A stretch of 64,000 bases of DNA from positions 1,550,001 to 1,614,000 of the forward strand of contig NZ_FSRC01000001.1 in NCBI RefSeq assembly GCF_900129785.1. The letters run 5' to 3'. Positions 3,001 to 18,017 of the stretch are shown here, piece after piece (the first letter of the stretch is position 1; every line of letters starts with the position of its first letter). The notes below the pieces were generated by a model. The model was not told the DNA's origin, ran no database searches, and saw only the letters and a list, made by a program, of their open reading frames with translations. This DNA comes from Algoriphagus halophilus (lineage in GTDB: Bacteria > Bacteroidota > Bacteroidia > Cytophagales > Cyclobacteriaceae). The position numbers and the translations under genes were made by a program.

Positions 3001-5501
3001 CTTATGAAGTTTACGCCAAAGTCAACTATCGTGGTAATATCAATAGTGGTGTTTCCGAAACGATCAATTTTAGTGTTGAGGTGGCAAACCAGGCTCCAAG
3101 CATTACTTTGAAAAACCCTAACAATAATCAAGTATTTGTTGAAGGAAAGGACTTAGTACAGTTTGAGGCCCTTGCAAGTGATCCAGAAGGGGAGGTCAAA
3201 ACTGTGGAGTTTTATAGTAATAACCAATTGCTTTCAAGGGTATCATCTGCACCTTATATATATAACTGGTCTGGTATTGAGGCGGGAAATTATTCAGTGC
3301 ATGCTGTCGTGATTGACCAAGCTGATTTGATAGGGACTTCTGAAACCATTGACTTTACTGTTGAAGCTCAGGTAAGTTTACCTCAGTTTAATGGACTTAT
3401 GGTGTCACCATCCCAAAATGCAGTGTTTCAGCTAGGTGATGAGCCTGTAATTTTGAATACCAATGCCGCATCTTCTGGGCTTGAAATACAAAAAGTAGAA
3501 TACTCGAACTGGGGCATGCCAATCGCTACAGTTTCAAGTGCTCCTTTTGACTTTACTTGGAGTTCTATTGAAGCCGGAGATTTTAATGTATCTGCTATTA
3601 TTACAGATATTCAGGGAAATACCTATGCTACTGATCAAGTATTCTTTACAGTGGAAGCGCCTGCCAATTTAGCTCCTGAACCAGATCCGTTGACGGTTTC
3701 CATGGCACAACCATTGGCGGATCAAGTGTTTACTTTAGGTCAAGATGTAGTAAACCTTCAGGTATCCATCTCCGATCCAAGCAATGTGTCCAGCGTTCAA
3801 TACTTCAACTGGGGTAATGCATTGGTAACAACCACTGCTCAGCCATTTGATTTCACATGGAGTTCCATAGAAGCTGGAGACTATAAGGTCTCTGCTGTAG
3901 TGACTGATTTGCAGGGTACTACTAATACTACTGAGGAAGTATTCTTCAGCGTAACCGAGCCAGCTCCACAAGCGGAACCATTGACTGTTTCCATGGCACA
4001 ACCTTTGGCAGATCAGCTGTTTACTTTAGGTCAGGATGTGGTAAACCTACAAGTCTCTATCTCTGATCCAAGTAATGTGACCAGCGTTCAATTCTTCAAC
4101 TGGGGCTATCCTTTGGTATCTACCACGGCTCAGCCATTTGACTTCACATGGAGTTCCATTGAAGCTGGAGACTATAAAGTGTCTGCAATAGTGACTGATT
4201 TGCAGGGCACAACATATACTACTGAGGAAGTATTCTTTAGTGTAACCGAACCAGCTCCACAACCGGAACCATTGACTGTTTCCATGGCACAACCATTGGC
4301 AGATCAGGTTTTTGTATTGGGACAAGATGTAGTAAACCTACAAGTCTCTATCTCTGATCCAAGCAATGTGACCAGCGTTCAATTCTTCAACTGGGGCTAT
4401 CCTTTGGTATCTACCACGGCTCAGCCATTTGACTTCACATGGAGTTCCATAGAAGCTGGAGACTATAAGGTGTCTGCAATAGTGACTGATTTGCAGGGCA
4501 CCACTTATACTACTGAGGAAGTATTCTTTAGTGTAACTGAACCAGATCCACAACCGGTACCATTGACTGTTTCCATGGCACAACCATTGGCAGATCAGGT
4601 TTTTGTATTGGGACAAGATGTAGTAAACCTACAAGTCTCTATCTCTGATCCAAGCAATGTGACCAGCGTTCAATTCTTCAACTGGGGCTATCCTTTGGTA
4701 TCTACCACGGCTCAGCCGTTTGACTTCACATGGAGCCAAATAGAAGCAGGTGAGTATAGCGTTTATGCTGAAGTCACTGATTTAGCTGGAAATATTACCA
4801 GTACAGAAACTGTAAGATTTACTGTGAGTGAATCAAATGATACCAGTGAGGTTCCAACAGAGCCTACAAGTTTGGTGATGACTCAACCTTACGAAGGACA
4901 AGTGTTTGAGCTTGGAAACCAATTAGTCACTTTGAAAGCTGTGGCAAATGGAGATGTGAGCAATGTCCAGTTCTTCAATTGGTATCTACCATTGGTGAAT
5001 GTAAATGATCCAAGTCTGGAGTTTGACTGGACTAAGATTGAGGTAGGAAATTACCTGGTCTATGCTCAAATCACTGATTCCAAAGGAAATGTGATTGAAT
5101 CTGAACCAGTAGGATTCCAAGTGATTGATCCAAGTCTCAAAGTAACAGAAGGTTCTGTTTCTGAAAATGGAGCAATGACCGAGATTCAAATGAATCCAAC
5201 TGACTTGGAGACCAAAGAAATCCAAAAGGCAGAGGAAATTACTCCTTCTAATTATGGAATTAAAATGGGGCCAAACCCTGCCGATTCTTTCTTGAGAATA
5301 TTCTTTGACGATTATCCTTCCAATTTGGATGTTCAAATGTCCATTGTTGATATGACAGGGGATGTTCAATTGACAGAAAAAGGCAATACCAATGATGGAG
5401 TGATGGAACTGGATGTAAATGCCATTCGACCTGGAGTCTATGTCGTCAAAATCAACGTTGGTGACAAATATGTTCAGACCAAAAAGCTCATCATTATCTA
5501 A
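1..5501 (+). CDS. T9SS-secreted beta-helix protein with 13 Ig-like modules (5' partial)
   Basis: The reading frame is open to the left edge, so the N-terminus and signal peptide are missing. About the first 225 visible residues are short Asn-rich turns such as GIYLDDN and IEITNNLF, typical of right-handed parallel beta-helix proteins, a fold common in polysaccharide lyases; no catalytic residue can be assigned. A beta-sandwich-like stretch follows, then thirteen Big_7-type Ig-like modules of about 93-97 residues (roughly 1370-5130). The last ~80 residues (from about 5250) look like a type A type IX secretion sorting domain: an early PNP motif, a late G-V-Y and a KKLIII terminus. Inferred: a secreted or surface-anchored carbohydrate-active or adhesive protein. 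The 1828-residue visible length and the near-identical late modules suggest recent internal duplication. Function of the catalytic part is uncertain. Confidence 0.88.
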   Translation, partial: RSSDLNGIGIYLGSDGNNSLIEKNTIDHVGYNGIHFGGNYTVVKNNFVNDFCVFKQDGGGIYTNSDGFRDRNNIGREIVGNIILNGKGSKLGTLEEVELAEGIYLDDNSAGIKVANNTVAFVSGKGIFLHNANNIEITNNLFYKAKSQVQFTHDFLGDPIRNVSISNNKFSSIEQSEKVYAVYSDLDDITSVGTINSNYFLDPYNIDFFIHTKTASEGSKGVDRNLKNWSSNFGHDSNSTKPDLNLPTYEVTSSNLVKQSEFNDASVIAGIYSANGKIVSNGISGNSYVINPNSTNQATVYIQFGQIQVSDDILVEFDLKSPKADTPIELFLEGTYNLDKGAGNKIVATKTEATTYQVLLSSLAARSNESLVLRIPSNAIDVYLDNLKISKVKTSPIDKGQQIFFEYNYSESMVQVPLDGTYVDAKNETFSGSVSIPAFGSVLLAKVSTDAPEQVNQAPSVILTQPANGQVFTLGTDQVQLIANAQDPEGEIKSVEFYSNGQLISTITEAPYTFDWTTITAGSYEVYAKVFDLGGLNASSEVVKFTVEAANQAPTISLTQPSNNQVFTLGLDAVQLVANAQDPEGEIKSVEFYSNGQLISTVTTAPYSYDWSTITAGSYVVYAKVFDLQGLSATSEKINFAVEGVNEAPSISLTQPINNQIFTLGAEAVQLVANAQDPEGEIKNVEFYSNGQLISSITSAPYTYDWSTITTGTYQVYAKVFDLGGLSATSEIIKFSVEATNQAPSVSLTQPNNNQVFTLGKDAVQLVANAQDPEGEINSVEFYSNGQLISTVTTAPYTYDWSTITAGTYQVYAKVFDLEGLNAISETVTFSVELANEAPSISLTQPINNQVFTLGSDAVQLVANAQDPEGEIKSVEFYSNGKLLTSVSKAPFVYDWSTITTGTYRVSAKVIDMGGLTANSETINFTVESSGAKQDPSIILTQPYHNQVFEFGKEKVQLVANPNESVGKINNVEFYSNGQLLGKDSKSPYVYNWSSIDVGAYEVYAKVNYRGNINSGVSETINFSVEVANQAPSITLKNPNNNQVFVEGKDLVQFEALASDPEGEVKTVEFYSNNQLLSRVSSAPYIYNWSGIEAGNYSVHAVVIDQADLIGTSETIDFTVEAQVSLPQFNGLMVSPSQNAVFQLGDEPVILNTNAASSGLEIQKVEYSNWGMPIATVSSAPFDFTWSSIEAGDFNVSAIITDIQGNTYATDQVFFTVEAPANLAPEPDPLTVSMAQPLADQVFTLGQDVVNLQVSISDPSNVSSVQYFNWGNALVTTTAQPFDFTWSSIEAGDYKVSAVVTDLQGTTNTTEEVFFSVTEPAPQAEPLTVSMAQPLADQLFTLGQDVVNLQVSISDPSNVTSVQFFNWGYPLVSTTAQPFDFTWSSIEAGDYKVSAIVTDLQGTTYTTEEVFFSVTEPAPQPEPLTVSMAQPLADQVFVLGQDVVNLQVSISDPSNVTSVQFFNWGYPLVSTTAQPFDFTWSSIEAGDYKVSAIVTDLQGTTYTTEEVFFSVTEPDPQPVPLTVSMAQPLADQVFVLGQDVVNLQVSISDPSNVTSVQFFNWGYPLVSTTAQPFDFTWSQIEAGEYSVYAEVTDLAGNITSTETVRFTVSESNDTSEVPTEPTSLVMTQPYEGQVFELGNQLVTLKAVANGDVSNVQFFNWYLPLVNVNDPSLEFDWTKIEVGNYLVYAQITDSKGNVIESEPVGFQVIDPSLKVTEGSVSENGAMTEIQMNPTDLETKEIQKAEEITPSNYGIKMGPNPADSFLRIFFDDYPSNLDVQMSIVDMTGDVQLTEKGNTNDGVMELDVNAIRPGVYVVKINVGDKYVQTKKLIII
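3690..4735 (+). repeat. 291-bp coding tandem repeat (Ig-like modules 9-12)
   Basis: The segment encoding LTVSMAQPLADQ starts at 3690, 3981, 4272 and 4563, an exact 291-bp (97-codon) period. The units are very similar at the nucleotide level and long stretches around 4080-4240, 4370-4530 and 4660-4735 appear identical. The fourth unit diverges after about 4735. Earlier modules (1370-3650) share the protein pattern but are much more diverged in DNA. This points to recent unequal crossing-over or gene conversion. Confidence 0.9.
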
Positions 5502-5869: not shown

Positions 5870-7165
5870 ATGAAAAAAATAGCTACTTCGTTTTTCCTAT
5901 TCATGTTCCTAATCCGATTGGGTTTTGCCCAGCAAGAACTTGTACATGCATCCCCTGCACAATTAGGATTTGACGAAGCGTTTATCAACCATCAAGTGGA
6001 TTCCATCATGCATGTGGGGATCGATAGTATGGCTTTTCCAGGAGCGCAGGTGTTGGTGGCCAAGAACGATACAGTGATTTTTCACAAGGCCTATGGATTT
6101 CATACCTATGAAAATCTTCAGGCTGTCGCATTGAATGACATATATGATTTGGCTTCAGTGACCAAAATATCTGGACCATTACCCGCCTTAATGAAGCTGG
6201 TGGATGAGGGGAAACTTGATCTGGATGAACCTTTCAGTACTTATTGGGAACCCTGGAGCAAACGAAAAGACAAAAAAGACCTTACCCTTCGAGAGATTTT
6301 GGCCCATCAGGCTGGTTTGGTTCCCTATATCGTGTTTTTGAATGAGGTAGTCCGAAAAAATGGCAAAGTCAAAAGAAGATTTGTGCATGCAACTTCCGAA
6401 AGACGATTTCATGGACAAGTATACGATGGCTTGTATATCAACGATCGATTTGAACGAAAAATGAACCGAATCATCAATCGATCTGATGTTTCAGATGAAA
6501 AAAAATACCTGTATTCGGGACTCACGTTTTTGATTTTCCCAAGCTTAATAGAACAGCTGACTGGAACTGACTATCAAACCTATTTAGAAGAGAATTTCTA
6601 TGGGCCGATAGGAAGTCATACCATGGGTTATCTTCCAAAAAAGAAAAATTACCCAAACGCCATCGTTCCAACAGAAGTAGATTCTCTTTTTCGAAAAACT
6701 CTGGTCAATGGATGGGTGCACGATGAAAACGCATCGTTAAAAGGAGGTGTTTCTGGAAATGCGGGCTTGTTCGCTACGGCTGATGACTTAGCCAAGTTGA
6801 TGCTCTTTTATCAAAATTATGGCTTGGTAGATGGCCAGCAGTTAATCTCAGCCGAAACCGTGAGAGAATTTACGGAAGTGCAGTATCCAGAAAATGAGAA
6901 CAGGAGGGGATTGGGTTTTGATAAACCACTATTGAACAATTCCGAGTTGCCATTAGAAGAAGCTTATCCTTCCCCATTGGCAAGTCCTAAAAGTTTTGGC
7001 CATTCCGGATTTACGGGAACCTTTGTTTGGGCCGATCCTGAAAATAAGCTCACGTATATCTTTCTATCCAATCGAGTATATCCTTCCAGAGATCATCAGA
7101 AACTGTACAGTTTAGGCATTCGTGAAGCCCTGCAAGATGTATTTTATCGAGCTGAGCAAAGGTGA
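5870..7165 (+). CDS. Exported serine hydrolase of the beta-lactamase (class C/PBP-like) family
   Basis: The 431-residue product starts with a signal peptide (about residues 1-20, ending GFAQ) and has the beta-lactamase-type serine hydrolase fold. The SxxK motif is S96-V-T-K99, a YSG near residue 216 fits the second motif, and HSGFTG near residue 380 fits the third (KTG-like) motif. Family members include D-aminopeptidases, esterases and penicillin-binding-protein-like enzymes; the substrate cannot be read from sequence, so beta-lactam resistance should not be assumed. It sits alone between a terminator and a convergent esterase gene. Predicted location is periplasmic or outer surface. Confidence 0.85.
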   Translation: MKKIATSFFLFMFLIRLGFAQQELVHASPAQLGFDEAFINHQVDSIMHVGIDSMAFPGAQVLVAKNDTVIFHKAYGFHTYENLQAVALNDIYDLASVTKISGPLPALMKLVDEGKLDLDEPFSTYWEPWSKRKDKKDLTLREILAHQAGLVPYIVFLNEVVRKNGKVKRRFVHATSERRFHGQVYDGLYINDRFERKMNRIINRSDVSDEKKYLYSGLTFLIFPSLIEQLTGTDYQTYLEENFYGPIGSHTMGYLPKKKNYPNAIVPTEVDSLFRKTLVNGWVHDENASLKGGVSGNAGLFATADDLAKLMLFYQNYGLVDGQQLISAETVREFTEVQYPENENRRGLGFDKPLLNNSELPLEEAYPSPLASPKSFGHSGFTGTFVWADPENKLTYIFLSNRVYPSRDHQKLYSLGIREALQDVFYRAEQR

Positions 7166-7358
7166 TTTAAAATCCGACCAAGCTTTGAGGTTTTGAACAA
7201 CTCAAAGGTTTCAGGTCTTCAGGTAAAATATTGATTATTAAATAGGTATTTGAATCACCACTTGTGAAAATGCTTGCCTTCCAATAGCTTGGAAATCACT
7301 TTATATGTCCATAGATAAAACCTGTACCTCCATTTTCAATGATTTGAATAAAATTAAC

Positions 7359-8381
7359 CTACTGAAAAACAAGGTTTTCTGAAAAGAAGGGCAAGGCTTT
7401 GGTTTGAATTCGTTCAGCGATGCGGTTGAGATGGTCACCTTTGTAGCTTTCATAGAAGTGATGGATCTGGTAAGCATCCAATACTTCATGTAGCTTTTTG
7501 GTAGCCTCGCTGATTCCTCTATCCTCAGTGCCTGCATCCATTCCTATCGCTTTAAGCTTTTTTAGGTTTGGGATATATTGATCAATCGTGTTGAGCGTAC
7601 GATTGGCGATGATCTTATTGATAATTTCCTGTCTAGGAGAACCGTCTTTTGCAGGGAGATCTAGATAGAAAGGAGGGTTTTGAGGATTGGGGGCAAAAGC
7701 CGCAGAGGTGGCAAGGGCCGCTATCTCGAAAAAAGAAGCATCCTGCAATTGATCTGGTGTGAATTTCTCCAACTTTAAGATCATCTCAGGATTGGTCACT
7801 GCTCCGCCGTCCATACAACATGGGCTTAGGGCGTAGATGGCTGAATAAACTTCAGGATATTTCATACCTAGACGAAGCGTGCCATATCCGCCCATGGAAT
7901 GTCCTGCAAGCCCTCTACTGTTTTTGTTGGAAATAGTTCTATAGTTGGAGTCGATATAACTCACCAGCTCTTTGGTGACAAAGGTTTCCCAATCGCCAAC
8001 AGTAGCAGAACTTGCATACATGCTTCCTTTAAAGGTATTGAAAGCATTGGGCATCACCACAATCATCTCTTTGGAATTTCCATCTGATAGAGATTGCTCT
8101 ATGACATTCTGAAGGTTGATCCAATGATCTTCCCATCCAAACCACTGGGAATCCGTGTCGGTAAATCCATGAAGCATGTAGAGAACAGGGAAGTACCGGT
8201 CAGGATCTGTTTGATAAGATGGAGGAAGATAGACTGTCACGTCCCGGTCTGCAGGGTCACCAATCAAGTTGCCTTCCAGTGCCTTGCTATGTACTTTGAT
8301 TCGCTCTTTGGTTCCTTTTTGTGCCTGAACAACAGTTATTCCAAAGAATAGAAGAAAGATGAATAGAAAATTTCTTTTCAT
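7359..8381 (-). CDS. Secreted esterase, putative esterase D/feruloyl-esterase-like family
   Basis: A 340-residue alpha/beta hydrolase with a signal peptide (MKRNFLFIF... ending VVQAQ). The nucleophile elbow is GHSMGG with Ser162, preceded by the family's YLPPSY and YMLHGF strands, and HLNR near residue 318 may hold the catalytic histidine. The family (Pfam esterase, PF00756) includes feruloyl and acetyl-xylan esterases, S-formylglutathione hydrolases and enterobactin esterases. The signal peptide argues for an extracytoplasmic ester-cleaving role, perhaps on plant or algal polysaccharide decorations; that is inference. It converges with the serine hydrolase gene. Confidence 0.85.
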
Positions 8382-8545
8382 AGGTTAATGGGTTTAGGTC
8401 TCTAGTAAAAGTAGGTGAAAGTGAGAAGTTGTCCAATCGTTCTGTTTATGAATATGGTTCAATAGAGAGGATAACTTCCTGCCAGTAGGCTAGAAAATGG
8501 ATTTCCAGCATCTGTTTGCGTCTATACAAACAGATGAAGAATTTG

Positions 8546-8850
8546 AATAGCCCCGGGTTTAATCCCGGGGCTATTAAGAAACCAAAATAGTTGACTCCCG
8601 CCCTGAAACATCTTTTGGAAATAATTTCATTTTTGCGGGAGAATTCCAGTGTCATGTCGACTGAAAGGAGAAATCTATTTTCTCTCGCAAAGCCGCGAAG
8701 AATGCAAAGTTTACAGCGAAGAAGATCAGTTTAGCAATAGCTCCTGAGCACCGAAATAAATAGCCCAAGGTTTTAACCTGGGGTAATGAATTACCATATA
8801 TACCCCTCCCTAGCAAAGTTATTTTAGAGTTGAAAGCGCCAATGCGGGAG
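8546..8850 (+). repeat. Composite palindromic repeat, copy A (full length)
   Basis: Begins with a perfect 12-bp-arm hairpin (AATAGCCCCGGG, loop TTTAAT, 8546-8575). Next comes a long-loop inverted repeat CTCCCGC (8595) to GCGGGAG (8635-8641), a linker with TCGCAAAG and GAAGAAGAT, a second hairpin around GGTTTTAACC (8764-8784), and a second CTCCC to GCGGGAG pair ending at 8850. The same order of parts recurs in copy C, and the 3' half recurs in copies B, D and E, all in this orientation. Nothing in it looks coding. Confidence 0.85.
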
Positions 8851-8893
8851 AAAGCCTGGCATTATGCCGAAAAATCCATCTGTTTAGAACAAA

Positions 8894-8925
8894 AAAAATG
8901 GCTATTTGAAGAAATAGCCATTTTT
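8894..8925 (-). terminator. Terminator after the fasciclin gene (probably bidirectional)
   Basis: Perfect 9-bp inverted repeat TGGCTATTT/AAATAGCCA with a 4-nt loop, flanked by A-run and T-run so that it can work on either strand. It lies about 20 bp past the stop of the minus-strand fasciclin gene. Confidence 0.85.
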
Positions 8926-8945
8926 AAATTTTTAATCAAAACATG

Positions 8946-9905
8946 TTATTCCATAGGAGGGAGCAATACCTGATCAATTCCGTGGATCACTCCATTAACA
9001 GCATGAATATTTAAAGCCGAAGGGATTAATGCACTATCATTTATTTGAAAGTTAGCTAAATCCACTGTCAACATTTCGCCTTCTAGGAGAGTTGGCAAGC
9101 TGGCATCTTGTCTCAAGTCTTGTGAGAAAGCTCTTGAAGGAACTACGTGATATTGTAATACATCAGTTAAAAGGTCCAATGGAATATCATCTATTCCATT
9201 CACTCCCAAAGTCTGATACAAATCCTCAAATGCAGCATCCGTTGGCGCAAATACAGTCAAATTATCCATCGCATCTCCACTGAAATTTTCTACTAATCCT
9301 GCTCTATTCAGTGCAGCAAGCAGCTGGGTGAATTCAGGTTCGGTTGCAGTACTATTGGCAACTGCAATTTCAGCGATGGATTCGCTTGGTGGAATGATCA
9401 CTTGGTCCAATGCATGGATTATCCCATTGGTTGCTCCAATATCTGTTGAAATGATTTTTGCCCTTCCGTTGATCCAAAGATCTCCGGATGGATCCTCACT
9501 TACATAAAACTGGCTTTCATTTAGAGTTGTTAAAGAACCTGGTTCCACATCGAAAGAATTTATTTCTCCGGATATCACATGATAGGTCAGAATATTTTCC
9601 AGATCAGGATTTGCTAATAATTCGCTAGCAGTCAAGTTATTTGCAGTGAGAAAAGCCTCGAAGCCTTCATCTATTGGGGCGAAAACAGTAAAAGGGCCTC
9701 CTACAGACAAATCATCTTCCAATTCCGCTTCCTGTATTGCTGAAACCAAGATTTCAAAATTTGGACTTGCAGCTGCTATTTCCACCAGATTTTCTGGAGT
9801 AAGGGGCATTGGTTCATTGTCGTCGCAAGAAGTAAGTGTCAAAGTTGTGCCGATAACGAGTGCTAAGGCAAGTAGTGTTCGTGGAAAAATTTTTGATAAC
9901 ATCAT
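8946..9905 (-). CDS. Lipoprotein with two fasciclin (FAS1) domains
   Basis: The 319-residue product has a lipoprotein signal peptide with lipobox LTSC near residue 27. Two tandem FAS1 domains follow (about 40-172 and 178-317). Each has the family's TVFAP motif, F-T-VFAPIDEGF in the first and LTVFAPTDAAF in the second, a YHV strand (LTYHVISG, LQYHVVPS), and the closing 'NG-I-H-x-D-x-V' motif before PP. FAS1 proteins mediate adhesion or matrix binding; in Bacteroidota they are often outer-membrane lipoproteins. It is a monocistronic gene between repeat copies A and B with its own terminator. The specific ligand is unknown. Confidence 0.92.
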   Translation of the reverse strand: MMLSKIFPRTLLALALVIGTTLTLTSCDDNEPMPLTPENLVEIAAASPNFEILVSAIQEAELEDDLSVGGPFTVFAPIDEGFEAFLTANNLTASELLANPDLENILTYHVISGEINSFDVEPGSLTTLNESQFYVSEDPSGDLWINGRAKIISTDIGATNGIIHALDQVIIPPSESIAEIAVANSTATEPEFTQLLAALNRAGLVENFSGDAMDNLTVFAPTDAAFEDLYQTLGVNGIDDIPLDLLTDVLQYHVVPSRAFSQDLRQDASLPTLLEGEMLTVDLANFQINDSALIPSALNIHAVNGVIHGIDQVLLPPME

Positions 9906-10198
9906 AAATTTGTCAGTTAGTTAAATAAGTTGGTTTAATTATTACAACTGACCTAAAATAAAAATGTTAGGTAATTAACTAAGATTCCTATTATCCGACA
10001 ATGGATTCTAAAAATAATGAAAGCTTCTTTGTTTACTATGCTTAAACGAAGTCTAGAATCACCCTTTTGATGTTGATTAATCTGTTTCTACAATAAGAAA
10101 GTTAAATCCCTTAACCTATATCTGAACCTTTGCTGAGTAGTCATATTTTAGTGACAAATTCCTTTAGGAGGAACTGTTTTTCGAAGAGATTTTTGATT
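9906..10198. other. Upstream region of the fasciclin gene
   Basis: About 290 bp of AT-rich sequence that must contain the minus-strand fasciclin promoter. No convincing TAnnTTTG element, small gene or RNA could be recognised here. Confidence 0.3.
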
Positions 10199-10370
10199 TT
10201 TAACCGCAAAGAGGCGAATCGCGAAAAGGATACGCTAAGAAGATTAGTTTAGCAATAGCTCCAGAGCAACGAAATAAATAGCCCCAGGTTTTAACCTGAG
10301 GTAAAGAATTAACATAAATCCCTCTCCCGCGCATAATCATTTTAGGAATTAAAAGCGGTATGCGGGAGGA
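10199..10370 (+). repeat. Composite palindromic repeat, copy B (5' truncated)
   Basis: Starts at the CCGCAAAG linker and keeps the GCTAAGAAGAT segment, the hairpin CCCCAGGTTTTAACCTGAGG (10282-10301), and the CTCCCGC (10324) to GCGGGAG (10362-10368) pair. The upstream GGGCCC-type hairpin and the first CTCCCGC pair of copies A and C are absent. The 3' end is at the same point as in the other copies. Confidence 0.8.
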
Positions 10371-10438
10371 TAACCACGAGCCTTATCAGTAGCATTTTTT
10401 TATTTCCTTACCTGTTTGTATCTCCAAACAAAAATGGA

Positions 10439-10460
10439 ATGTGAGTGAAGACACTCTCAT
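10439..10460 (-). terminator. Possible weak terminator after topB
   Basis: Hairpin GAGTG-AAGA-CACTC extended by three outer pairs across one T-T mismatch. On the minus strand it is followed five bases later by TTTTT. It lies about 40 bp beyond the topB stop. The loop and closing pairs match those of the hairpin at 13404-13429. Confidence 0.45.
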
Positions 10461-10501
10461 GGGCAAAAAAAACAAACCATGTAATAGATACATAAAGGAT
10501 A

Positions 10502-12823
10502 TTAAACCCCCACACTCTCCTTAAATAAGGATATTACCAGCTCTTCGGTTAAGGGTCTCTTGTTCGCTTTTTCACGCAAGGTGTCAAAAGGGTATCTAAA
10601 ATCACAACCTTCTTTATAGGCACTGCATCCATAGGCTTTTTTACCTCTGATAATCGTGCCTTTTTTGCATAAGGGACATGGGATGACAGAAGAAGGTTTT
10701 TTAGAAGCCTGCGGACTCGCTTCTTTCTTTGCCTCTAAAACGAGTTGGGATTGATCATCGAGACGTAGCAATCCTTCTTTGTCACCTGTCTCCGTTTTAA
10801 AGCCCTTTAAGTTGACAGTAGCCCCTTTTTGGAGCAACCGTACATACTGTTTCTCTGAGATTTTCTTTCCTTCAAATGAAAAAGGAAGTAAAAAGTTGCA
10901 GCCCTTTTTATAGGCACTGCATCCGTAACTCGATTTGCCTTTCAGCAATGAGCCTTCCTTACATTTTGGACAAGTGTGTCCCACCACAGTAGTGGATGCT
11001 TTTTCTTTTTCTGGAGTTCTTCCTTTTTCAGCAGCTTTGGATTCGGAAGGAGGGGATATGATGGTTTGACTTTGCTCCCGCATCACTTCATATACCAGAT
11101 GCTCCACCATGAGCTTCATGTTTTTGACAAAAGAACCTGCATGAAACTTCCCTTTTTCAATTTCCCTCAATTGCTTCTCCCATTGCCCTGTCAGTTCTGC
11201 TGAGGTCAATAGCTCGTTCCGAATGATTTCGATCAATTGAATCCCGGTTTGAGTGGGCAAAATCTGCTTTTTGTTCCGTTCAATATACTGTCGTTTAAAA
11301 AGTGTTTCAATGATACTTGCCCGGGTGGAAGGACGTCCTATGCCATTCTCTTTCATTAGTTCCCGCATCTCTTCATCATCCACCTGCTTGCCGGCAGTTT
11401 CCATACCTCTTAATAAAGTCGCTTCTGTGTAATGCTTGGGAGGTTTGGTTTCCTTCTCCAAGAATGAAGGTTCATGGGGACCTTTTTCTCCTTTTTTGAA
11501 GATGGGGAGCTCATCTTTCTCCTTTTTATCTTTTCCGTCCGCAGTTTCAAAAACAACTTTCCAGCCTTTTTCCAAGATTACCTTCCCGGTTGCTTTAAAG
11601 GAAACGGTATCCACCTTTCCTATAACTGTAGTATTAGCCACTGAGCAATCCTCATAAAATATGGCGATAAATCGCCTTGCAATGATATCATATACTCGAA
11701 GGTGATTCCCATCCAAATTTCCCTGAACCCCAGTAGGGATGATGGCATGGTGATCGGTTACTTTTTTATCATTAAAAACCTTAGTGGACTTTTTTAATTT
11801 TTTACCCAAAACAGGGCGAATCAAATCCTCATATTTGGTGAGTTTCTCCAGTATTCCGGGGGCTTTTGGATAGATGTCGTTGGGCAAAAACGTGGTATCT
11901 ACCCTTGGGTAGGTAATGACTTTTTGCTCGTATAGTTGTTGCGCAATTTTAAGTGTTTCATCGGCAGAAAGCCCAAACTTATTGTTGCAATACACCTGTA
12001 AACCAGTCAAGTCAAAAAGCTTTGGGGAATATTCCTTTCCATTTTTCTTTTCAATGGAGACTACTTCAAAGTCATGCGCTTTCACCTGGTTGGCAAAAGC
12101 TTCCCCATCTTCTTTCTTAAGAAATTTCCCCTCTTCACAATTGAAGGTAGTCTCTCTATAGACCGTTTGTAATTCCCAATAGGGTTGAGGCTGAAAGTTT
12201 TGAATTTCCTTAAAGCGGTTTACAATCATAGCTAGTGTAGGTGTTTGTACTCTACCGATGGACAATACTTGTTTGTAACCCCCATATTTGACGGTATATA
12301 AGCGTGTGGCGTTGATCCCTAATAACCAATCGCCAATGGCCCTGGAATATCCCGCATAGTATAAATTATCGTATTTAGTGGAAGGTTGTAGCTTTTCGAA
12401 GCCTTCTTTAATTGCCTCCGTGGTCAAAGAAGAGATCCATAAGCGTTTGACTTCGCCTTTGTATCCTGCTTGTTCGATGACCCATCGTTGGATCAACTCT
12501 CCCTCTTGGCCGGCATCCCCACAGTTAATCACCTCTGTGGCTGTTTCAAATAGCTTTTTTACAATGTTGAATTGCTTTTGGATCCCAGCATTGTCCACCA
12601 CTTTGGTTTTGAACTTTTCGGGCAGCATGGGGAGGTGACTGAGATGCCAACCTTTCCAATGGGCTTGATAATCGCTTGGTTCCATTAAAGTGCAAAAGTG
12701 ACCAAACGTATAGGTGACGGTGTATCCATTTCCTTCGTAATATCCATCATGCTTAGAAGTGGCTCCAAGTACAGCCGCTATTTCACGGGCAACGCTTGGT
12801 TTTTCTGCAATACAAACTTTCAT
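10502..12823 (-). CDS. topB: DNA topoisomerase III (type IA)
   Basis: The start at 12823 gives a 773-residue protein beginning MKVCIAEKPS; 26 further in-frame upstream codons show no family similarity and are rejected. An N-terminal Toprim domain (Glu7 of AEKPS and the acidic CGDAGQEGE motif at 101-109) is followed by the topo IA core with the catalytic tyrosine at Y305 in TYPRVDT and GRPSTRA further on. Two C-terminal zinc ribbons repeat the pattern CPxCKxG...YGCSAYKxGCxF. It relaxes negatively supercoiled and decatenates DNA through a 5'-phosphotyrosine. It is the only large gene in the repeat-rich region. Chromosomal and integrative-element TopBs both exist in Bacteroidota; no conjugation genes flank it here. 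Confidence 0.95.
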   Translation of the reverse strand: MKVCIAEKPSVAREIAAVLGATSKHDGYYEGNGYTVTYTFGHFCTLMEPSDYQAHWKGWHLSHLPMLPEKFKTKVVDNAGIQKQFNIVKKLFETATEVINCGDAGQEGELIQRWVIEQAGYKGEVKRLWISSLTTEAIKEGFEKLQPSTKYDNLYYAGYSRAIGDWLLGINATRLYTVKYGGYKQVLSIGRVQTPTLAMIVNRFKEIQNFQPQPYWELQTVYRETTFNCEEGKFLKKEDGEAFANQVKAHDFEVVSIEKKNGKEYSPKLFDLTGLQVYCNNKFGLSADETLKIAQQLYEQKVITYPRVDTTFLPNDIYPKAPGILEKLTKYEDLIRPVLGKKLKKSTKVFNDKKVTDHHAIIPTGVQGNLDGNHLRVYDIIARRFIAIFYEDCSVANTTVIGKVDTVSFKATGKVILEKGWKVVFETADGKDKKEKDELPIFKKGEKGPHEPSFLEKETKPPKHYTEATLLRGMETAGKQVDDEEMRELMKENGIGRPSTRASIIETLFKRQYIERNKKQILPTQTGIQLIEIIRNELLTSAELTGQWEKQLREIEKGKFHAGSFVKNMKLMVEHLVYEVMREQSQTIISPPSESKAAEKGRTPEKEKASTTVVGHTCPKCKEGSLLKGKSSYGCSAYKKGCNFLLPFSFEGKKISEKQYVRLLQKGATVNLKGFKTETGDKEGLLRLDDQSQLVLEAKKEASPQASKKPSSVIPCPLCKKGTIIRGKKAYGCSAYKEGCDFRYPFDTLREKANKRPLTEELVISLFKESVGV

Positions 12824-12937
12824 CTGAAGCAAATCTAAAAAAATTAGCCTAAGCACAACAGAAGGTTTGCCTAGTAAACATCTGAAAAAGACGGAACCCA
12901 TGAAGGCCAGTAGCTTATAATTTCAAATGAAAATAAT

Positions 12938-13344
12938 ATAGCCCCGGGTTTAAACCCGGGCTATTAAGAAACCAAATAATTGACTCCCGCCCAGAAACAT
13001 CTTTTGGAAATAATTTCATTTTTGCGGGAGGATTCCAGTGTCATTTCGACTGAAAGGAGAAATCTATTTTCTTTCGCAAAGCCCCACAGAACTCAAAGTA
13101 TATCGCTAAGAAGATTATTTCAGAATAAGCTCCGGAGGAGCGTTAGGTTAATATTCTGCCCGCCGTGGCGGGGCCATGGCCCCGATAGTTATCTGGGTAA
13201 ATCCATGGTAAAAAGAACCCCAAAAAATTACCTCCCGAGCAGCGAAATATATAGCTCCAGGTTTTAACCTGGGGTAAAGAATAACCATAAAATTCGCCTC
13301 CCGCGCAAATTTATTTTAAGAATTCAAAGCGCCTGTGCGGGAGG
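12938..13344 (+). repeat. Composite palindromic repeat, copy C (full length, interrupted)
   Basis: Same order of parts as copy A: hairpin ATAGCC(C)CGGGTTT/AAACCCGGGCTAT (12938-12965), CTCCCGC (12984-12990) to GCGGGAG (13024-13030), the CGCAAAG and GCTAAGAAGAT linker, the CCAGGTTTTAACCTGG hairpin (13257-13274), and CCTCCCGC (13297-13304) to GCGGGAGG (13337-13344). A foreign segment of roughly 95 bp lies between AGCTCC and CTCCCGAGCAGCG. A small open frame across it is not believed to be a gene. Confidence 0.85.
13136..13229. repeat. Insert within repeat copy C containing two palindromes
   Basis: Compared with copies A and D, this stretch is extra. It contains CCCGCC-GT-GGCGGG (about 13159-13172) followed at once by the perfect palindrome GGGGCCATGGCCCC. 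The exact edges are uncertain by a few bases because GGAGGAG and CTCCCGAG at the junctions are themselves similar to the repeat. It resembles a small palindromic element nested in a larger one. Confidence 0.6.
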
Positions 13345-13403
13345 AGGAACGCCCGCCTTGTTGGGAGCATAGGTATATTAATTCATTCTCAACAAATAGA
13401 AAT

Positions 13404-13429
13404 CGCCGTTCGTGAAGACACGAACGGCG
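13404..13429 (-). terminator. Strong hairpin, possible terminator of the downstream small gene
   Basis: Perfect 11-bp stem CGCCGTTCGTG/CACGAACGGCG with an AAGA loop. It lies about 45 bp past the stop of the minus-strand small gene at 13475. The following T-tract on that strand is poor (ATTTCTATTTG), so termination is only plausible; it may instead be part of a dispersed repeat. Confidence 0.45.
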
Positions 13430-13474
13430 GCTGTATCTTAATGCTATTAGTATTTAATCTAGAATCTGTAGATC

Positions 13475-13702
13475 TTAAATAGACATAGAGTAGCTATTCA
13501 GATACCTTTCGTTGTTCTGGGTTTTTGTTTTCATTTTTGGCCTAATAATCTCGCTACGTAACCAGTATTTAAGCTCTCTGCCCTCATCAGGTGATAGCCA
13601 AAGCAATGCCTTTCGATATTCTTTTTTAAATAGCTTTTGATTAAATGAGACAGCTTTTAGAATGGTTTTGCAGTAATCGAGCATAGTTTTTCCCTTCTTC
13701 AT
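13475..13702 (-). CDS. Small conserved-type protein of unknown function
   Basis: A 75-residue basic protein. After a short MKKGKT leader it reads MLDYCKTILKAVSF...FKKEYRKALLWLSPDE, an amphipathic helical pattern that I recall from short hypothetical proteins of Cytophagales, though this cannot be checked here. An alternative start is the internal Met7. No signal peptide, membrane segment or metal motif is seen. It sits alone in the repeat-rich region beside another small minus-strand gene. No function can be assigned. Confidence 0.55.
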   Translation of the reverse strand: MKKGKTMLDYCKTILKAVSFNQKLFKKEYRKALLWLSPDEGRELKYWLRSEIIRPKMKTKTQNNERYLNSYSMSI

Positions 13703-13783
13703 AAGAAATGAATTGAAAAGTTGAAAGATTAAATTTTAGAAACTTGAAACTGATTGGATCTATGTATAGATCTCAGCTGGCTT

Positions 13784-14092
13784 TCAGATCAAAAAACTAC
13801 AGTGTCTTATAAAAAGGGGATTTTTACCACTGACAAATTCTAAAGAAATTCTCTTTGGAAGTACTGAGGAGAAAAAGGTAAAGGTTTCGGTTTTAGGATT
13901 AGCTGAGATTTCGCACTGTTTGGTGGCAGAAGTAAAATGATAGCTCTGAACTCTAGTATTTACTATTTCAGTTTCCTGAATCCCTTCACCTTGAAAACTT
14001 AGAGAATTTACCAATCCGCTCTCAATTGTTCCTGATGTAAGGAAAATCAGATTGAGCAGTAGAACTGAGGATATTGTGGCAATTTTTCTCAT
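13784..14092 (-). CDS. Small exported hypothetical protein
   Basis: A 102-residue frame with a plausible signal peptide (MRKIATISSVLLLNLIFLTS) and a Ser/Thr-rich mature part with one central and one C-terminal cysteine. No family was recognised. It lies between the 75-residue gene and repeat copy D. The signal-peptide-like start argues for a real gene, but base composition is no different from flanking noncoding sequence, so it could be chance. Confidence 0.4.
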   Translation of the reverse strand: MRKIATISSVLLLNLIFLTSGTIESGLVNSLSFQGEGIQETEIVNTRVQSYHFTSATKQCEISANPKTETFTFFSSVLPKRISLEFVSGKNPLFIRHCSFLI

Positions 14093-14362
14093 TAACCCAT
14101 ATAACGAAAGACCTATGAGATAAGGTTACAGTTTTAGGTATTAAAAATGGTTTATATTTTATATGAAATGTATAAAGTATTTTTATGGTCTATTTCCGTT
14201 ACTGAATCGGTAATTATTTGGTATTTAAAATTATAGTTAAAAACGGTACAGATTCGGTGCAAGGAGTTGAAGAAGAAGGAGTTACAAACCCTAAAAGAAT
14301 AGGAAATCGTAGATGCACTCGATAGGTATCCTAGTCTATGCTTAGTAGGGGATTTATTAATT
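14093..14362. other. Intergenic region without recognisable features
   Basis: About 270 bp of very AT-rich sequence upstream of the 102-residue frame. It presumably holds that gene's promoter; nothing else is seen. Confidence 0.3.
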
Positions 14363-14527
14363 TTCACTCGCAAAGAACTCAAAGTATTCCGCTAAGAAGA
14401 TTATTTTCCAAAAAGCTCCCGAGCAGCGAAATATAAAGCCCCAGGTTTTAACCTGAGGTAAAGATTAACCACATAATTAGACTCCTGCCCAAATCTATTT
14501 TAGGAATTCAAGACGCTGGTGCGGGAA
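14363..14527 (+). repeat. Composite palindromic repeat, copy D (5' truncated)
   Basis: Begins at CACTCGCAAAG, keeps ACTCAAAGTAT and GCTAAGAAGAT nearly as in copy C, then AGCTCCCGAGCAGCG, the hairpin CCCCAGGTTTTAACCTGAGG (14439-14458) and a decayed outer pair CTCCTGC to GCGGGA. The 5' hairpins of copies A and C are missing. Confidence 0.8.
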
Positions 14528-14745
14528 GATACCTAATAGACTTATGGTCCTCATTAAAGTTTCTATTAGCATAAAACCTGAGCTGATTGGCACTTTGAAC
14601 ACTCTGTCATATTTGTCTAGACTGGATGTAATAAATTTTTAGGTTTTCATATTTCAAACCTTAAAATATATTGGAAGCCAGGGACTTGGTTTAATTCAAA
14701 GGTTGGCAAACATTTTGAAAGAACAGATCGAAAACTGAGAGATTA
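14528..14745. other. Upstream region of the DoxX-like gene
   Basis: About 220 bp between repeat copy D and the membrane protein start, presumably containing its promoter. No clear promoter or other element was recognised. Confidence 0.3.
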
Positions 14746-15135
14746 ATGGCTGAACAAAAATCTGGAATAGATAAAATCCTAATCAGGATATTGTTATGGA
14801 TACCTTCCTTGTTAATCGTATTGTTCTACATTCCAAATGGGCTTGATAAACTTATTAACCACGACCAAACAGGAAAAATCGTTGAAAGTAGTACAGTAAT
14901 GATATTCACTGGAATTTTTATTTTAATTGGAGTTGCCCTTTTCTTATACCGCAAGACAATACTGATTGGTACATCCATGTTGGTCTTGTACATGACATTT
15001 ACTGTTTTAATCCATATGTATAAGGGAAAACCTGCCGAAATTGCAATTCTAATTGTTTTGGCTACCGTGTTTTCCTCATTTATCAGAGAACCAAAATTAT
15101 TTCAGGAAAAAGCTCCCGAGCAGCGAAATAAATAG
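14746..15135 (+). CDS. DoxX-like four-helix membrane protein, C-terminus replaced by a repeat
   Basis: The 129-residue product has four hydrophobic segments (about 12-29, 48-64, 69-90 and 98-111) and a PNGLDKL motif after the first, resembling the DoxX/DoxX_2 family of small inner-membrane proteins. Some DoxX relatives are linked to thiol or oxidative stress, but no reaction is established for this group. The last eight codons, KAPEQRNK, and the TAG stop fall inside repeat copy E, so the natural end of the gene was probably lost or extended when the repeat arrived. Because the lost part lies after the fourth helix, the protein may still work. Confidence 0.65.
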   Translation: MAEQKSGIDKILIRILLWIPSLLIVLFYIPNGLDKLINHDQTGKIVESSTVMIFTGIFILIGVALFLYRKTILIGTSMLVLYMTFTVLIHMYKGKPAEIAILIVLATVFSSFIREPKLFQEKAPEQRNK

Positions 15136-15226
15136 CCCCAGGTTTTAACCTGGGGTAAAGAATAACCACAAAATTAGCCTCCCGCGCAAATCTATTTTAG
15201 GAAATTAAAACGCTGTTGCGGGAGGA
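15107..15226 (+). repeat. Composite palindromic repeat, copy E (3' half only)
   Basis: Contains AGCTCCCGAGCAGCGAAAT, the perfect hairpin CCCCAGGTTTTAACCTGGGG (15136-15155) and the pair CCTCCCGC (15178-15185) to GCGGGAGG (15218-15225). It has no GCAAAG linker or 5' hairpins. It overlaps the end of the DoxX-like gene. Confidence 0.85.
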
Positions 15227-15425
15227 TGTCTTCCTACCGATAAGCACGTAAACGGATGTTTTTGGAGATTCAGTTTTCTTAAGCCCAAAGCCAAAGAAAC
15301 CACAAAAGCATTACAGAGAGTTACCATAACAAAATCCTCATGAAATCATCTAATCAATTATTCAAATTGTATACCGCTGTACGGTCAGAGAACAAAAGGT
15401 TAAACTAAAAAGCCAACTAGATACC

Positions 15426-15614
15426 AAAAGAGAATACCCCGTTATCCTCAAATAGTAACCAGGTATTCAACTAGAGTAAAGCTGTCGCCAAATAGAATAC
15501 CTAGTTATTCAATAAGTATACTCGGTTACTCTCTGAACATCACTTGTTCACCAAAGAGAATAACTCACTACCCGAAAAGAGAAACTAAGTATGCAAAAAG
15601 GTTAACCAGATACC
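15426..15614. repeat. Degenerate tandem array, about nine units of 20-22 bp
   Basis: Successive segments starting near 15426, 15448, 15470, 15490, 15512, 15532, 15553, 15574 and 15595 share an A-rich start, a GAATAC/GTAAC core and a GTTAT-C/GTATTC end. Best-matching units are AATAGAATACCTAGTTATTC and AAAGAGAATAACTCACTACC. Conservation is loose, spacing is constant to within two bases, and there are no intervening unique spacers, so it is not a CRISPR array. A related but interrupted unit may begin at 15391. Confidence 0.6.
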
Positions 15615-15619
15615 CTTTT

Positions 15620-15670
15620 GTCCCTTAGGGGACCTCGAAGGTGGGTAGGGGTACCTTGGAGGTGGGGGTA
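15620..15670. repeat. GC-rich short palindromes following the tandem array
   Basis: The palindrome GTCCC-TTAG-GGGAC (15620-15633) runs into two 20-bp units (15631-15650 and 15651-15670), each carrying ACCT-nnn-AGGT followed by a G-rich tail. The sudden GC richness stands out in otherwise AT-rich intergenic DNA. Confidence 0.5.
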
Positions 15671-16035
15671 TTACAAATTCCTGGAAAATAGAATAGAGAA
15701 GGAAAACCCCTTTCATGGAAGAAATGGACGATTTTAATAATTTTTGTACTAAAATAAGAGCTCAAAAAACTTTTTAGTTTTTATCTTATCATCAAAAATA
15801 GGATTAAAACTTATTTGAGCAGGCTCAAAATTTTAAGAGGTATCAGAGCTACATAAACCTAAAATTTTAATGGCAATTAATGTGACAAACGAAAATTATA
15901 ATTTATGATTATCCGCAATGGAGCCAGTAGTTAAAGAATGGGTTAAGAAAGTCTCGGATAATCGTCCACCGACGACAGTCTCCTGTCTACAGCACACTTA
16001 AATATATTTCAAAGCCATTTTACCTCTTTGAATAT
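15671..16035. other. Intergenic region upstream of the toxin-antitoxin pair
   Basis: About 365 bp without a gene. It contains hairpin AAAAACT/AGTTTTT near 15765-15782, TTTGAGC-AG-GCTCAAA at 15814-15829, and a 9-bp inverted repeat GATTATCCG (15907) / CGGATAATC (15955) enclosing 39 bp. No coding frame of note. Confidence 0.4.
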
Positions 16036-16054
16036 TTTACCAATTTTTGGTAAA
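16036..16054. promoter_or_regulatory. Palindrome, candidate ParD operator
   Basis: Perfect inverted repeat TTTACCAA-TTT-TTGGTAAA ending 20 bp before the antitoxin start. Ribbon-helix-helix antitoxins of this type commonly repress their own promoter by binding such palindromes; binding here is inferred from position only. Confidence 0.55.
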
Positions 16055-16074
16055 TTGGGTTAAACTTTAGAAAA

Positions 16075-16323
16075 ATGAAAAATACATCAGTATCCCTCGG
16101 AAGTTATTTTGACCAATTTGTACAAAACCAGGTTTCTGAAGGCAGGTATAAAAATGTAAGTGAAGTAATCCGTGCAGGGCTTCGTCTTTTGGAAAATGAG
16201 GAGAGCAAGGCAATCGCTTTGCGGAATGCGATTCAAAAAGGTATAGATAGTGGAATTGCGGATGATTTTGATCCTGAAAATCACCTGCAGAAATTGAAGT
16301 CTCAGAGGTTGAAAAATGGGTAA
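16075..16323 (+). CDS. parD: ParD-family antitoxin
   Basis: An 82-residue protein with the ParD ribbon-helix-helix pattern: beta-strand NTSVSLGSYFDQFV followed by GRYKNVSEVIRAGLRLLE, then a charged C-terminal tail (DDFDPENHLQKL) of the kind that wraps around the toxin. It is followed by a RelE/ParE toxin gene overlapping by 8 bp, the usual antitoxin-first order of a type II module. It should neutralise the toxin and repress the shared promoter, where a palindrome is present. Lies at the edge of the repeat-rich region. Confidence 0.88.
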   Translation: MKNTSVSLGSYFDQFVQNQVSEGRYKNVSEVIRAGLRLLENEESKAIALRNAIQKGIDSGIADDFDPENHLQKLKSQRLKNG

Positions 16324-16615
16324 ATATAAATTCACCAATGAAGCGGTAGAGGATTTATCAGCTATTTGGAATTATACATTAGACAATTGGTCGGAATCGC
16401 AAGCGGACAAATACTATCGTTTCATTCTTGAAAGTTGCCAGGAAATTGCTGATAACCCAGATTTAGGAAAAAATTATGAGGGAATAGCGCGGAATTTATT
16501 TGGTCTCAAAGTAAATCGTCATATTATTTTTTACCGCAAATTATCTTCTTCGCTGATTGAAATAACTAGAATCTTACATGAAAGGATGGATTTGAAAAAC
16601 AGGATGAATGAATAA
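16316..16615 (+). CDS. parE: ParE/RelE-superfamily toxin
   Basis: A 99-residue protein with the ParE pattern: KFTNEAVEDLSAIWNYTLDN at the start, an 'ADKYYRFI' helix, a LGKNYEGIARNLFGLKVNRH core and the strand HIIFYRK, then ILHERMD. ParE toxins inhibit DNA gyrase and RelE toxins cleave mRNA; the central 'NLFGLKVNRHIIFYRK' and the partner ParD point to the ParE branch, but activity is not proven by sequence. Translationally coupled to parD through an 8-bp overlap. Confidence 0.88.
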   Translation: MGKYKFTNEAVEDLSAIWNYTLDNWSESQADKYYRFILESCQEIADNPDLGKNYEGIARNLFGLKVNRHIIFYRKLSSSLIEITRILHERMDLKNRMNE

Positions 16616-16634
16616 AAACTCCTTCAAGCCTGGT

Positions 16635-18017
16635 CTATTTCCCGATACAAAACTTGGAAAAAATGTTAGCCAACAAATCATCCGTAGTAATCTCTCCGGT
16701 GATCTCTCCTAGGTAATGCAGGGAACGACGGATATCCATGGCCACAAAATCATTGGTGATTTGATCGTCAATGCCTTTCAAAATATCCAATAAGGAATCC
16801 CGTGTTTTGATTAAAGAATCGTAATGACGCACATTGGTCACGATGGTGTTTCCGGTCTTAAACTTATCCAGATTCACCAGCTCCAGGATTCTGGCTTTCA
16901 ATTCTTCCAGGTTTTCCTTCTTTCCAGCAGATATAAAAATAGTATCCGGATGTTTTGACTGGAGTTCAGAAACCAGTTCCGAATTCGCCTTATCTATTTT
17001 ATTGGCGATTTTCAGAAAGGGAACACCCAGATTTTCCAGCTTATTCACATCTCGGTTGATCTCAATTAGGTCTGTATCTCCCAAATCAAATAAATATAGG
17101 ATCAAGGAAGCAGTTTTCATTTTCTCTTGGGTTCGACTGACCCCAATGGCTTCTATGGTGTCGGTGGTTTCTCTCAATCCTGCCGTATCGATGAATCGGA
17201 AGATCACCCCCCCTAAATTGATCTCATCTTCAATAAAATCACGGGTAGTTCCGGCTATATCCGATACAATGGCCTTTTCTTCATTGAGAAGGGCATTCAA
17301 TAGGGTGGACTTGCCGGCATTTGGTTTCCCGGCAATAACCGTAGGAACTCCATTTTTGATGACATTCCCTAAGTCAAAGCTGAGGATCAATTCTTCAATC
17401 ACTCTCAAGAGTCGCTCTACCAATTCCTGTAGCTCTGTTCTACTGGCGAATTCCACATCTTCCTCGCCAAAATCGAGTTCTAATTCAATCATAGAGGCAA
17501 AATGAATCAGCTTTTCACGCAGCTGTTGAATTTCGCTGCTGAATCCTCCTCGCATTTGACTTAAGGCTGCTTGATGGCTGCTTTCTGAATCGGCATGGAT
17601 CAAATCTGCTACTGCTTCTGCTTGAGCCAGATCAAATTGCCCGTTTAAGAATGCTCGCTGAGTGAATTCTCCTGGTTTGGCTGGTCTTGCACCTTTCTTT
17701 AGGAAAAGTTTGATGACCTGATTGATGATGTAGGAGGAACCATGCGTGGAGATTTCCACTACATTTTCCTTGGTAAATGATTTGGGGGCGATAAATAAGG
17801 AGACCAACACCTCATCTATGATTTTTTCTCCATCCCGTATGGTTCCAAAATGGATGGTATGACTTTCCTGCTTTTCCAGATTCTTTCCGAAAAAGACTTC
17901 ATTGCAAAGTTTGATGGCGTCTTTGCCAGAAAGTCGGATGACAGCAATGGCACCCACCCCTTGAGGGGTTGCCAAAGCAATGATGGTATCATTCCCTTCG
18001 GAAAGTGAAAAACTCAT
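16635..18017 (-). CDS. mnmE: tRNA uridine-5-carboxymethylaminomethyl modification GTPase
   Basis: The 460-residue product is full length for MnmE. It has the N-terminal formyl-folate-binding domain ([20 protein letters not shown]), a helical domain, an inserted Ras-like GTPase with P-loop GKPNAGKS (230-237), TTRD and DTAG, and the invariant C-terminal FCIGK. With MnmG it modifies the wobble U34 of tRNAs. It is the last gene of a seven-gene minus-strand operon, overlapping the thioredoxin gene by 4 bp, so its expression is probably tied at least partly to the metal-responsive promoter; an internal promoter cannot be excluded. Confidence 0.97.

Follow-up and report, generated by a model that had tools for sequence, protein, structure and literature searches.

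The closest described systems to the repeats considered here are the REPs, the REPINs, each a pair of inverted REPs (PMC6006769), and the Y1 transposases. In the table of PMC6006769 the TnpA-Y1 subclass 1.2 is entered as having no REPs, and the terminal structures of IS200 are given there as generally absent from this subclass. Bacteroidetes are named in PMC3733652 in connection with CGTC repeats. In the 64,000-nucleotide stretch of Algoriphagus halophilus DNA that was analysed (the window) hairpin repeats form a cluster, which we interpret, with a probability of roughly 60%, as an array of REP-type units, non-autonomous and all pointing one way, that we infer to have been spread by a Y1 transposase and that have been reshuffled by recombination between copies.

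The unit is about 115 bp long and consists, in order, of a hairpin H1, a tag of the [G/A]TAG type, a hairpin H2, a spacer and a third hairpin, H3, with a long loop. The original prediction had described five composite copies (A to E) with optional parts in a single orientation. Their positions and orientation are confirmed, all being on the + strand, and they do belong to one repeat family, but they are not five composites, since they resolve into eight head-to-tail units of the one repeat, two in A, three in C and one each in B, D and E (Table 1). The 5′ ends are ragged, as had been observed, though in place of the one-ended copying suggested for them they mostly reflect decayed tandem units; what had been taken for “optional” 5′ parts are units that have decayed. 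With a unit profile whose training set included the window copies themselves, eight places on the + strand within 8541-15225 scored 35.5-81.8 bits. Outside 8400-15300 the top score in the window was just 2.1 bits, in line with the earlier remark that no copy was noticed in the rest of it, and in 2.56 Mb of random first-order Markov sequence modelled on the window it was 9.7 bits. Copy E retains a piece of the 5′ linker that overlaps the final codons of the preceding ORF, and, of the three copies that A. lutimaris has in tandem at locus L071, the last is collinear with copy B.

Table 1. Repeat units of the array and neighbouring genes, in window coordinates
Feature	Position	Strand	Evidence or remark
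Copy A unit 1 (H2-H3; H1 lost)	8541..8641	+	nhmmer 56.9 bits
Copy A unit 1, CM R1 match	8529-8642	+	E 1.3e-7, genome search
Copy A unit 2 (H1-H2-H3)	about 8739..8851	+	nhmmer profile and CM matches; linker 5′ of it from about 8677
Fasciclin-domain gene, between A and B	8946..9905	-	Pfam Fasciclin, E 3.7e-53; not found in A. lutimaris L071
Copy B, linker + unit	10199..10376, unit 10257-10369	+	nhmmer profile, CM
topB, between B and C (DNA topoisomerase III)	10502..12901	-	also present in A. lutimaris
Copy C unit 1	12919..13031 (profile start 12937)	+	nhmmer profile, CM
Copy C unit 2, partial (H1 + expanded H2, without H3)	13128..13242	+	nhmmer 35.5 bits; no match from CM
Copy C unit 3	about 13230..13344	+	nhmmer profile, CM
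Copy D, linker + unit	14360..14536, unit about 14414-14528	+	nhmmer profile, CM
DoxX-like ORF, between D and E	14746..15135	+	final codons and stop inside E; no counterpart found in A. lutimaris L071
Copy E, truncated linker (from about 15093) + unit	15093..15227, unit 15111-15225	+	nhmmer profile, CM

A stem upheld by compensatory change and a high genome copy number are both criteria for a REP. The first is seen here: all three stems covary. In an alignment of 86 matches (82 distinct), fitted to the model R1, 17 of the 20 pairs show double changes, 94.6% of cells are paired and 233 are double-change cells. None of 500 shuffles reached this number (mean 51.5), and when the structure was slid along the alignment at most 52.1% of cells were paired. 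A first alignment of 34 sequences had double changes in one pair of H1 and four pairs of H2, and none in H3. A REP is also expected to bear a GTAG-type tetranucleotide at the 5′ foot of its palindrome; among the 86 matches the tag is GTAG in 33, ATAG in 35 and different in 18. The sequences of the stems vary among species under a constant grammar.

Copy number, on the other hand, is low, with eight model matches in the 4.98-Mb genome of the organism itself and 12, 15 and 42 in three others. The whole-genome search that had been proposed for the copies finds them clustered, seven of the eight matches falling in the array region; the sole model match elsewhere, at C2:1027543, is weak (E 3.8e-6), and a 26-nt piece of the repeat lies at C3:145878. 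BLAST of copy C against plasmids gave no match. The family is present in 44 of 59 sampled Algoriphagus genomes. In ten genomes, chosen for having matches or few contigs and searched with E limits of 1e-3 (four genomes) or 1e-4 (six), 29 of 31 clusters are one-way. Neighbouring units no more than 50 kb apart share their orientation in 104 cases and oppose it in 4, as against 5 and 8 for those over 300 kb apart, and at less than 500 bp the order is direct in 51 of 52 pairs.

In four one-contig genomes one reading of the skew agrees with all 58 matches; dnaA was dropped as an origin mark because in G009, G020 and G032 its position does not match that of the sampled skew switches. The window cluster (7/7 matches) runs opposite to this strand sense, as do L071, L060, L062, L063 and L066 when judged by local skew. 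A universal replication-strand rule, which the window cluster contradicts, was accordingly rejected. The uniform sense in the four genomes together with the reversal here makes a link to replication worth testing.

The earlier statement that no transposase lies nearby holds as far as Y1 is concerned: there is none in the array, and the only Y1_Tnp match of the genome, at C1:147578, is 1.4 Mb away. The region around it contains a weak match to the model CM R2 (29.6 bits, E 4e-4) that rests on the tag and H2, the H1 part being weak and A/T-rich. Across the genus, 80 Y1 regions were picked among the higher-scoring of the matches listed, in 79 of which a Tnp ORF was found (L270 is the exception). 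At E 0.01, CM R2 gave 65 matches in 30 of these regions and none in the other 50. The matches comprise H1, tag and H2, mostly without the long-loop H3, and the farthest is 966 bp from the Tnp ORF, with none in the 227 kb that lie more than 1 kb away; 27 are on the same strand as Tnp and 38 on the opposite one, and orientation is mixed in 7 of the 16 regions with several. Hairpins in non-coding DNA are likewise concentrated near the gene: 210 were counted up to 600 bp from Tnp (59.1 kb) and 32 at distances over 1 kb (33.7 kb), with p 7e-16, and 63 of 79 loci have at least one in the near zone versus 20 of 79 in the far one. Direct reading of L252, L256 and L272 revealed repeated hairpin sets around the Y1 gene. 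L252 has two candidate full units, one each side of the gene, in which all six H3 positions are paired over a loop of ~40 nt that also contains rival short stems; it is the only Y1 locus at which a long-loop H3 was seen. The ten alignments listed for eight re-searched Y1 regions gave a long-loop H3 in two, a short-loop third hairpin in three and a broken or reduced one in five. The motif that marks TnpA-Y1 subclass 1.2, Y---Q--HH, is present in 77 of the 81 linked proteins, most of which are about 142-157 aa long; WQ also occurs in 77 and DH[VI]H in 54.

The original prediction of a REP/MITE-like non-autonomous mobile repeat is therefore supported in its REP-like, non-autonomous part, by the tagged hairpin, the H1-H2 sets common to Y1 loci, the clustering and the polymorphism of copies and genes relative to A. 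lutimaris. The MITE-like part is unsupported, no inverted arms of at least 16 nt bounding a unit being present among the 25 of 31 inverted pairs listed. No clean empty site for a single unit was found. On the favoured reading, a unit in single-stranded form can fold into the three hairpins, of which H1, tag and H2 make up the same kind of set as flanks many Y1 (HuH) genes of the subclass 1.2 signature in this genus. Such a Y1 transposase, acting in trans, most probably cuts and joins units as single strands, seeding new sites, and H3 would presumably take part in the movement. Direct copies would later amplify in tandem, and DNA between them would be gained or lost through recombination, in a direction that we infer.

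Gene content between copies of the array does appear to have changed by gain or loss. At places where the window shows copy-gene-copy, A. lutimaris lacks the gene and carries either a single copy or three in tandem. Plain recombination could explain these indels.

The same three A. lutimaris copies, with a period of 205-208 bp and 93.3-96.1% identity, the 219-bp period of the units at L063 and the lack of a Y1 gene in the cluster would all suit a plain tandem-repeat locus, with one origin per site, slippage and homologous recombination, and a likeness to Y1 flanks owed to shared ancestry without current activity. We consider this unlikely, as several genomes have one-way clusters at numerous sites, so that dispersal is needed, and the grammar is kept while the stems vary among species. 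Distinctly less probable is a gene-cassette array, in which direct units would be recombination sites and a gene with its unit would be gained or lost in integron fashion via a single-strand HuH transposase. The arrangements D-DoxX-E and A-fasciclin-B point this way, as do the DoxX-like homologues, which stop about where copy E starts and of which the 12 organism-named ones among the matches listed are all from outside Algoriphagus. However, there are just two such events, in one species pair, for which recombination accounts; the genes lie on both strands; and the derived sites, three common to D and E and one or two to D and the A. lutimaris copy, are too few to decide. In its boldest and equally improbable form, HuH transposases of the subclass 1.2 signature, so far without known substrates, would run both the tagged hairpin sets and the three-hairpin units, and direct units would be sites for the excision and reinsertion of single-stranded gene-plus-unit cassettes, giving a one-way, integron-like array without an integron integrase. 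Very improbable is selection on transcripts for RNA-level signals (terminators or 3′ stabilisers): on the - strand H2 and an A/T-rich tail look terminator-like in one unit each of A to E, 19 such sites occur in the region versus 6.8 (sd 2.7) when shuffled, and A, B and C are situated 3′ of - strand genes, but several of the sites are outside units, no - strand ORF of at least 100 aa ends just before D or E, the fasciclin gene is followed by a separate 14-pair terminator-like hairpin (8894-8925), the long ORFs at L063, L067 and L068 have the same orientation as most or all of the units, and no Rfam family reached its gathering score in 7000-17000 (top 24.9 bits versus 49.5).

Under the Y1-spread reading, a subclass printed without REPs would gain a concrete candidate substrate, in a repeat whose three stems vary freely under a constant order, and the locus would be a natural case in which to ask whether REP-type arrays aid the entry and exit of genes in chromosomes.

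Compared with the GTAG-tagged REPs as described in PMC3733652, the family has in common the tagged hairpin, a mostly intergenic position, tandem clusters and the link to Y1 transposases, whereas the Algoriphagus unit has three hairpins in fixed order and a tag of either GTAG or ATAG. With the REPINs of PMC3116915 it shares two-hairpin repeats near Y1 genes and, in some, ordered tandem arrays with flanks; membership was rejected on orientation, since H1 and H2 are unlike each other and neighbouring units are direct, and H3 is extra. The TnpA-REP subclass 2.6 of PMC6006769 is also from Bacteroidetes and has atypical secondary structures on its flanks, but its Y motif is YIH[QN]NP in place of Y---Q--HH (77/81 here). 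As for subclass 1.2 itself, printed in PMC6006769 without REPs, the Algoriphagus genes of that signature, at high-scoring loci of this one genus, have flanks enriched in hairpins.

The five repeat copies of the window, A to E, lie in the region 8546-15226 at the places given in the original prediction. A profile combining units from several loci separates them into eight units of a single repeat of about 115 bp (two in A, three in C and one each in B, D and E). On the forward strand each unit runs, 5′ to 3′, through a hairpin (H1), about 10 bases, a tag, a second hairpin (H2), about 25 bases and a third hairpin (H3). The two parts of the copies that had been read as optional, a 5′ hairpin and a CTCCCGC pair, belong instead to a decayed unit lying in front, as its H2 and H3. 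The units score 35.5-81.8 bits, compared with at most 9.7 bits in random sequence and at most 2.1 bits elsewhere in the window. A genome-wide search, made with the covariance model R1 over the 4.98 Mb of the organism's own genome at E 1e-3, recovered seven of the eight units and one weak match on another contig.

Parts of the repeat unit and the DoxX-like gene in the window
Feature	Sequence or position	Strand	Remark
Linker	purine-rich, CGCAAAG.., GCTAAGAAGATT	+	upstream of unit
H1	AGCTCC..GGAGC type	+	partly decayed in window
Tag	[G/A]TAG type	+	between H1 and H2
H2	CCCCAGG..CCTGGGG type	+	3′ of tag
H3	CTCCCGC..GCGGGAG	+	loop about 35-40
DoxX-like gene	14746-15135		between D and E

Another hairpin type, GTTCGTGAAGACACGAAC-like, lies near units at 13403-13430, where it has a terminator-like score on both strands; similar hairpins occur in L071, a region of A. 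lutimaris, and in the window at about 10440-10470. A 26-nt TGTCATTTCGACTGAAAGGAGAAATC-like piece at 13040-13065 recurs away from units (G000:C3:145878-145903 in the own genome; L070, G001:C351); a single short contig from a relative carries it four times (86-96%). Elsewhere in the window, an ORF of 1828 residues (15-5501) contains twelve stretches of bacterial Ig domain together with a Por secretion tail.

In an alignment of 86 matches (82 distinct) from a search of 51 sources, itself fitted to the structure, 94.6% of cells pair, falling to at most 52.1% once partners are slid, and both sides have changed at 17 of the 20 pairs; double-change cells number 233 compared with 51.5 in shuffles, an excess that kinship among sequences can raise. 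The first alignment, of 34 sequences, gave 44 such cells versus 17.3 in shuffles (0 of 500 as high), while its five double-change pairs were not above shuffles (110 of 500 as high) and none fell in H3. The H3 stem varies by species, being CTCCTGC/GCAGGAG, GCTGGC/GCCAGC and CCTCGGC/GCCGAGG at the unit loci L280, L282 and L175, respectively.

The nearest relatives of the window's topB gene are from Algoriphagus, which places the window in that genus. At the DNA level copy C was matched in 12 of 58 genomes, the own one included, all Algoriphagus and some by pieces shorter than 35 nt; none of 22 genomes of other genera matched. Applied within the genus at E 1e-5, R1 matched in 44 of 59 Algoriphagus genomes, again including the own one. 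The 160 matches in ten chosen genomes comprise 37 singletons and 31 clusters, defined as two or more matches with neighbours no more than 10 kb apart; in 29 clusters every match has the same orientation. Neighbours in these genomes agree rather than disagree in orientation in 104 versus 4 cases at up to 50 kb, 9 versus 2 at 50-300 kb and 5 versus 8 beyond 300 kb.

With GC skew sampled in 8-20 kb windows, all 58 R1 matches in the one-contig genomes G009, G020, G032 and G058, the last to be sampled (24, 16, 10 and 8), fit a unit on the C-rich strand. There are soft spots at 4.75 Mb in G009, where raw skew fits and third-position skew of forward-strand genes does not, in G020, where six matches at 2.53-2.57 Mb adjoin a mixed-sign window, and at 3.47 Mb in G058, where neighbouring windows disagree. 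Strand sense is reversed at the window cluster, L071 and four further loci (L060, L062, L063 and L066, the last two judged from reverse-strand genes alone), so that a universal C-rich-strand rule was dropped and no strand rule is drawn. L067 and the weak own-genome match on C2 agree with the four genomes, both from reverse-strand genes alone, and skew gives no definite sense at L059, L061 and L068. In G009, G020 and G032 dnaA lies off the sampled skew switch and is thus a poor origin mark.

The window at 10199-14530 is collinear with L071 at 93%. Where the window has D, the DoxX-like gene and E, L071 has a single copy with the left flank of D and the right flank of E, and the place of A, a fasciclin gene and B is taken there by three copies in tandem; neither gene was found in the 22 kb of L071. 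The DoxX-like protein gave 209 matches; 12 of the 120 listed are organism-named, and the best of these is from Nonlabens (78%). Nonlabens and Antarcticibacterium are Flavobacteriaceae, as, presumably, are the remaining named genera. Since no Algoriphagus appears among the named homologues listed, and the gene has no DNA match genus-wide at E 1e-20 with five candidates scored per genome, gain in the window's lineage is favoured over loss in A. lutimaris, and the gene was likely acquired horizontally. Its homologues stop at about the start of E, and its stop codon lies inside E. Synteny with A. lutimaris starts, at window 7292, about 100 bp past an A. lutimaris unit pair (L071 reverse strand 7909), so this breakpoint adjoins an array. 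For the tandem amplification and the gene indels, recombination between direct copies would suffice.

A Pfam Y1_Tnp match, marking the HuH single-strand transposase family, is present in 52 of 59 Algoriphagus genomes. The own genome has one, above the NCBIfam cut-off for the IS200/IS605 family and below that for REP-associated transposases. Around high-scoring Y1 matches 80 regions were sampled, 79 of them giving 81 ORFs, and the 300-bp flanks of these ORFs hold 157 hairpins in 48.3 kb compared with 42 in 95.4 kb, an enrichment that persists when non-coding DNA alone is counted; 61 of the 81 have at least one. A second covariance model, R2, gave 65 matches, spread over 30 of the 80 regions and none more than 966 bp from the ORF; they run one way in 9 of the 16 regions with several matches. 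Repeated hairpin sets surround the Y1 gene in L252, L256 and L272, with R2 matches in both orientations at the latter two. In the four R1 and ten R2 alignments inspected, H1, tag and H2 are well paired; among the R2 alignments the third hairpin has a long loop in two, which lie on opposite sides of the Y1 gene of L252, and a short loop in three, and in the other five it is broken or reduced. Y1 loci such as L128 and L129 also carry window-like H2 sequences. Paired Y1 genes lie side by side in L232 and L253, about 1.1-1.3 kb from start to start.

Relatives of the own genome's Y1 protein with solved structures include the ISHp608 transposase. Enzymes of its family recognise a single-stranded hairpin with a 5′ guide tetranucleotide (PMC6006769), and by analogy H2 and the tag would act as the hairpin and guide read by the Y1 enzyme. 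H3 may serve as a further recognition stem or simply be carried along. The sampled Algoriphagus ORFs carry the marks of TnpA-Y1 subclass 1.2, namely Y---Q--HH (77/81), WQ (77/81) and DH[VI]H (54/81). That subclass is listed without REPs and with IS200 terminal structures generally absent (PMC6006769); unlike the subclass as printed there, the sampled Algoriphagus Y1 ORFs are enriched in flanking hairpins.
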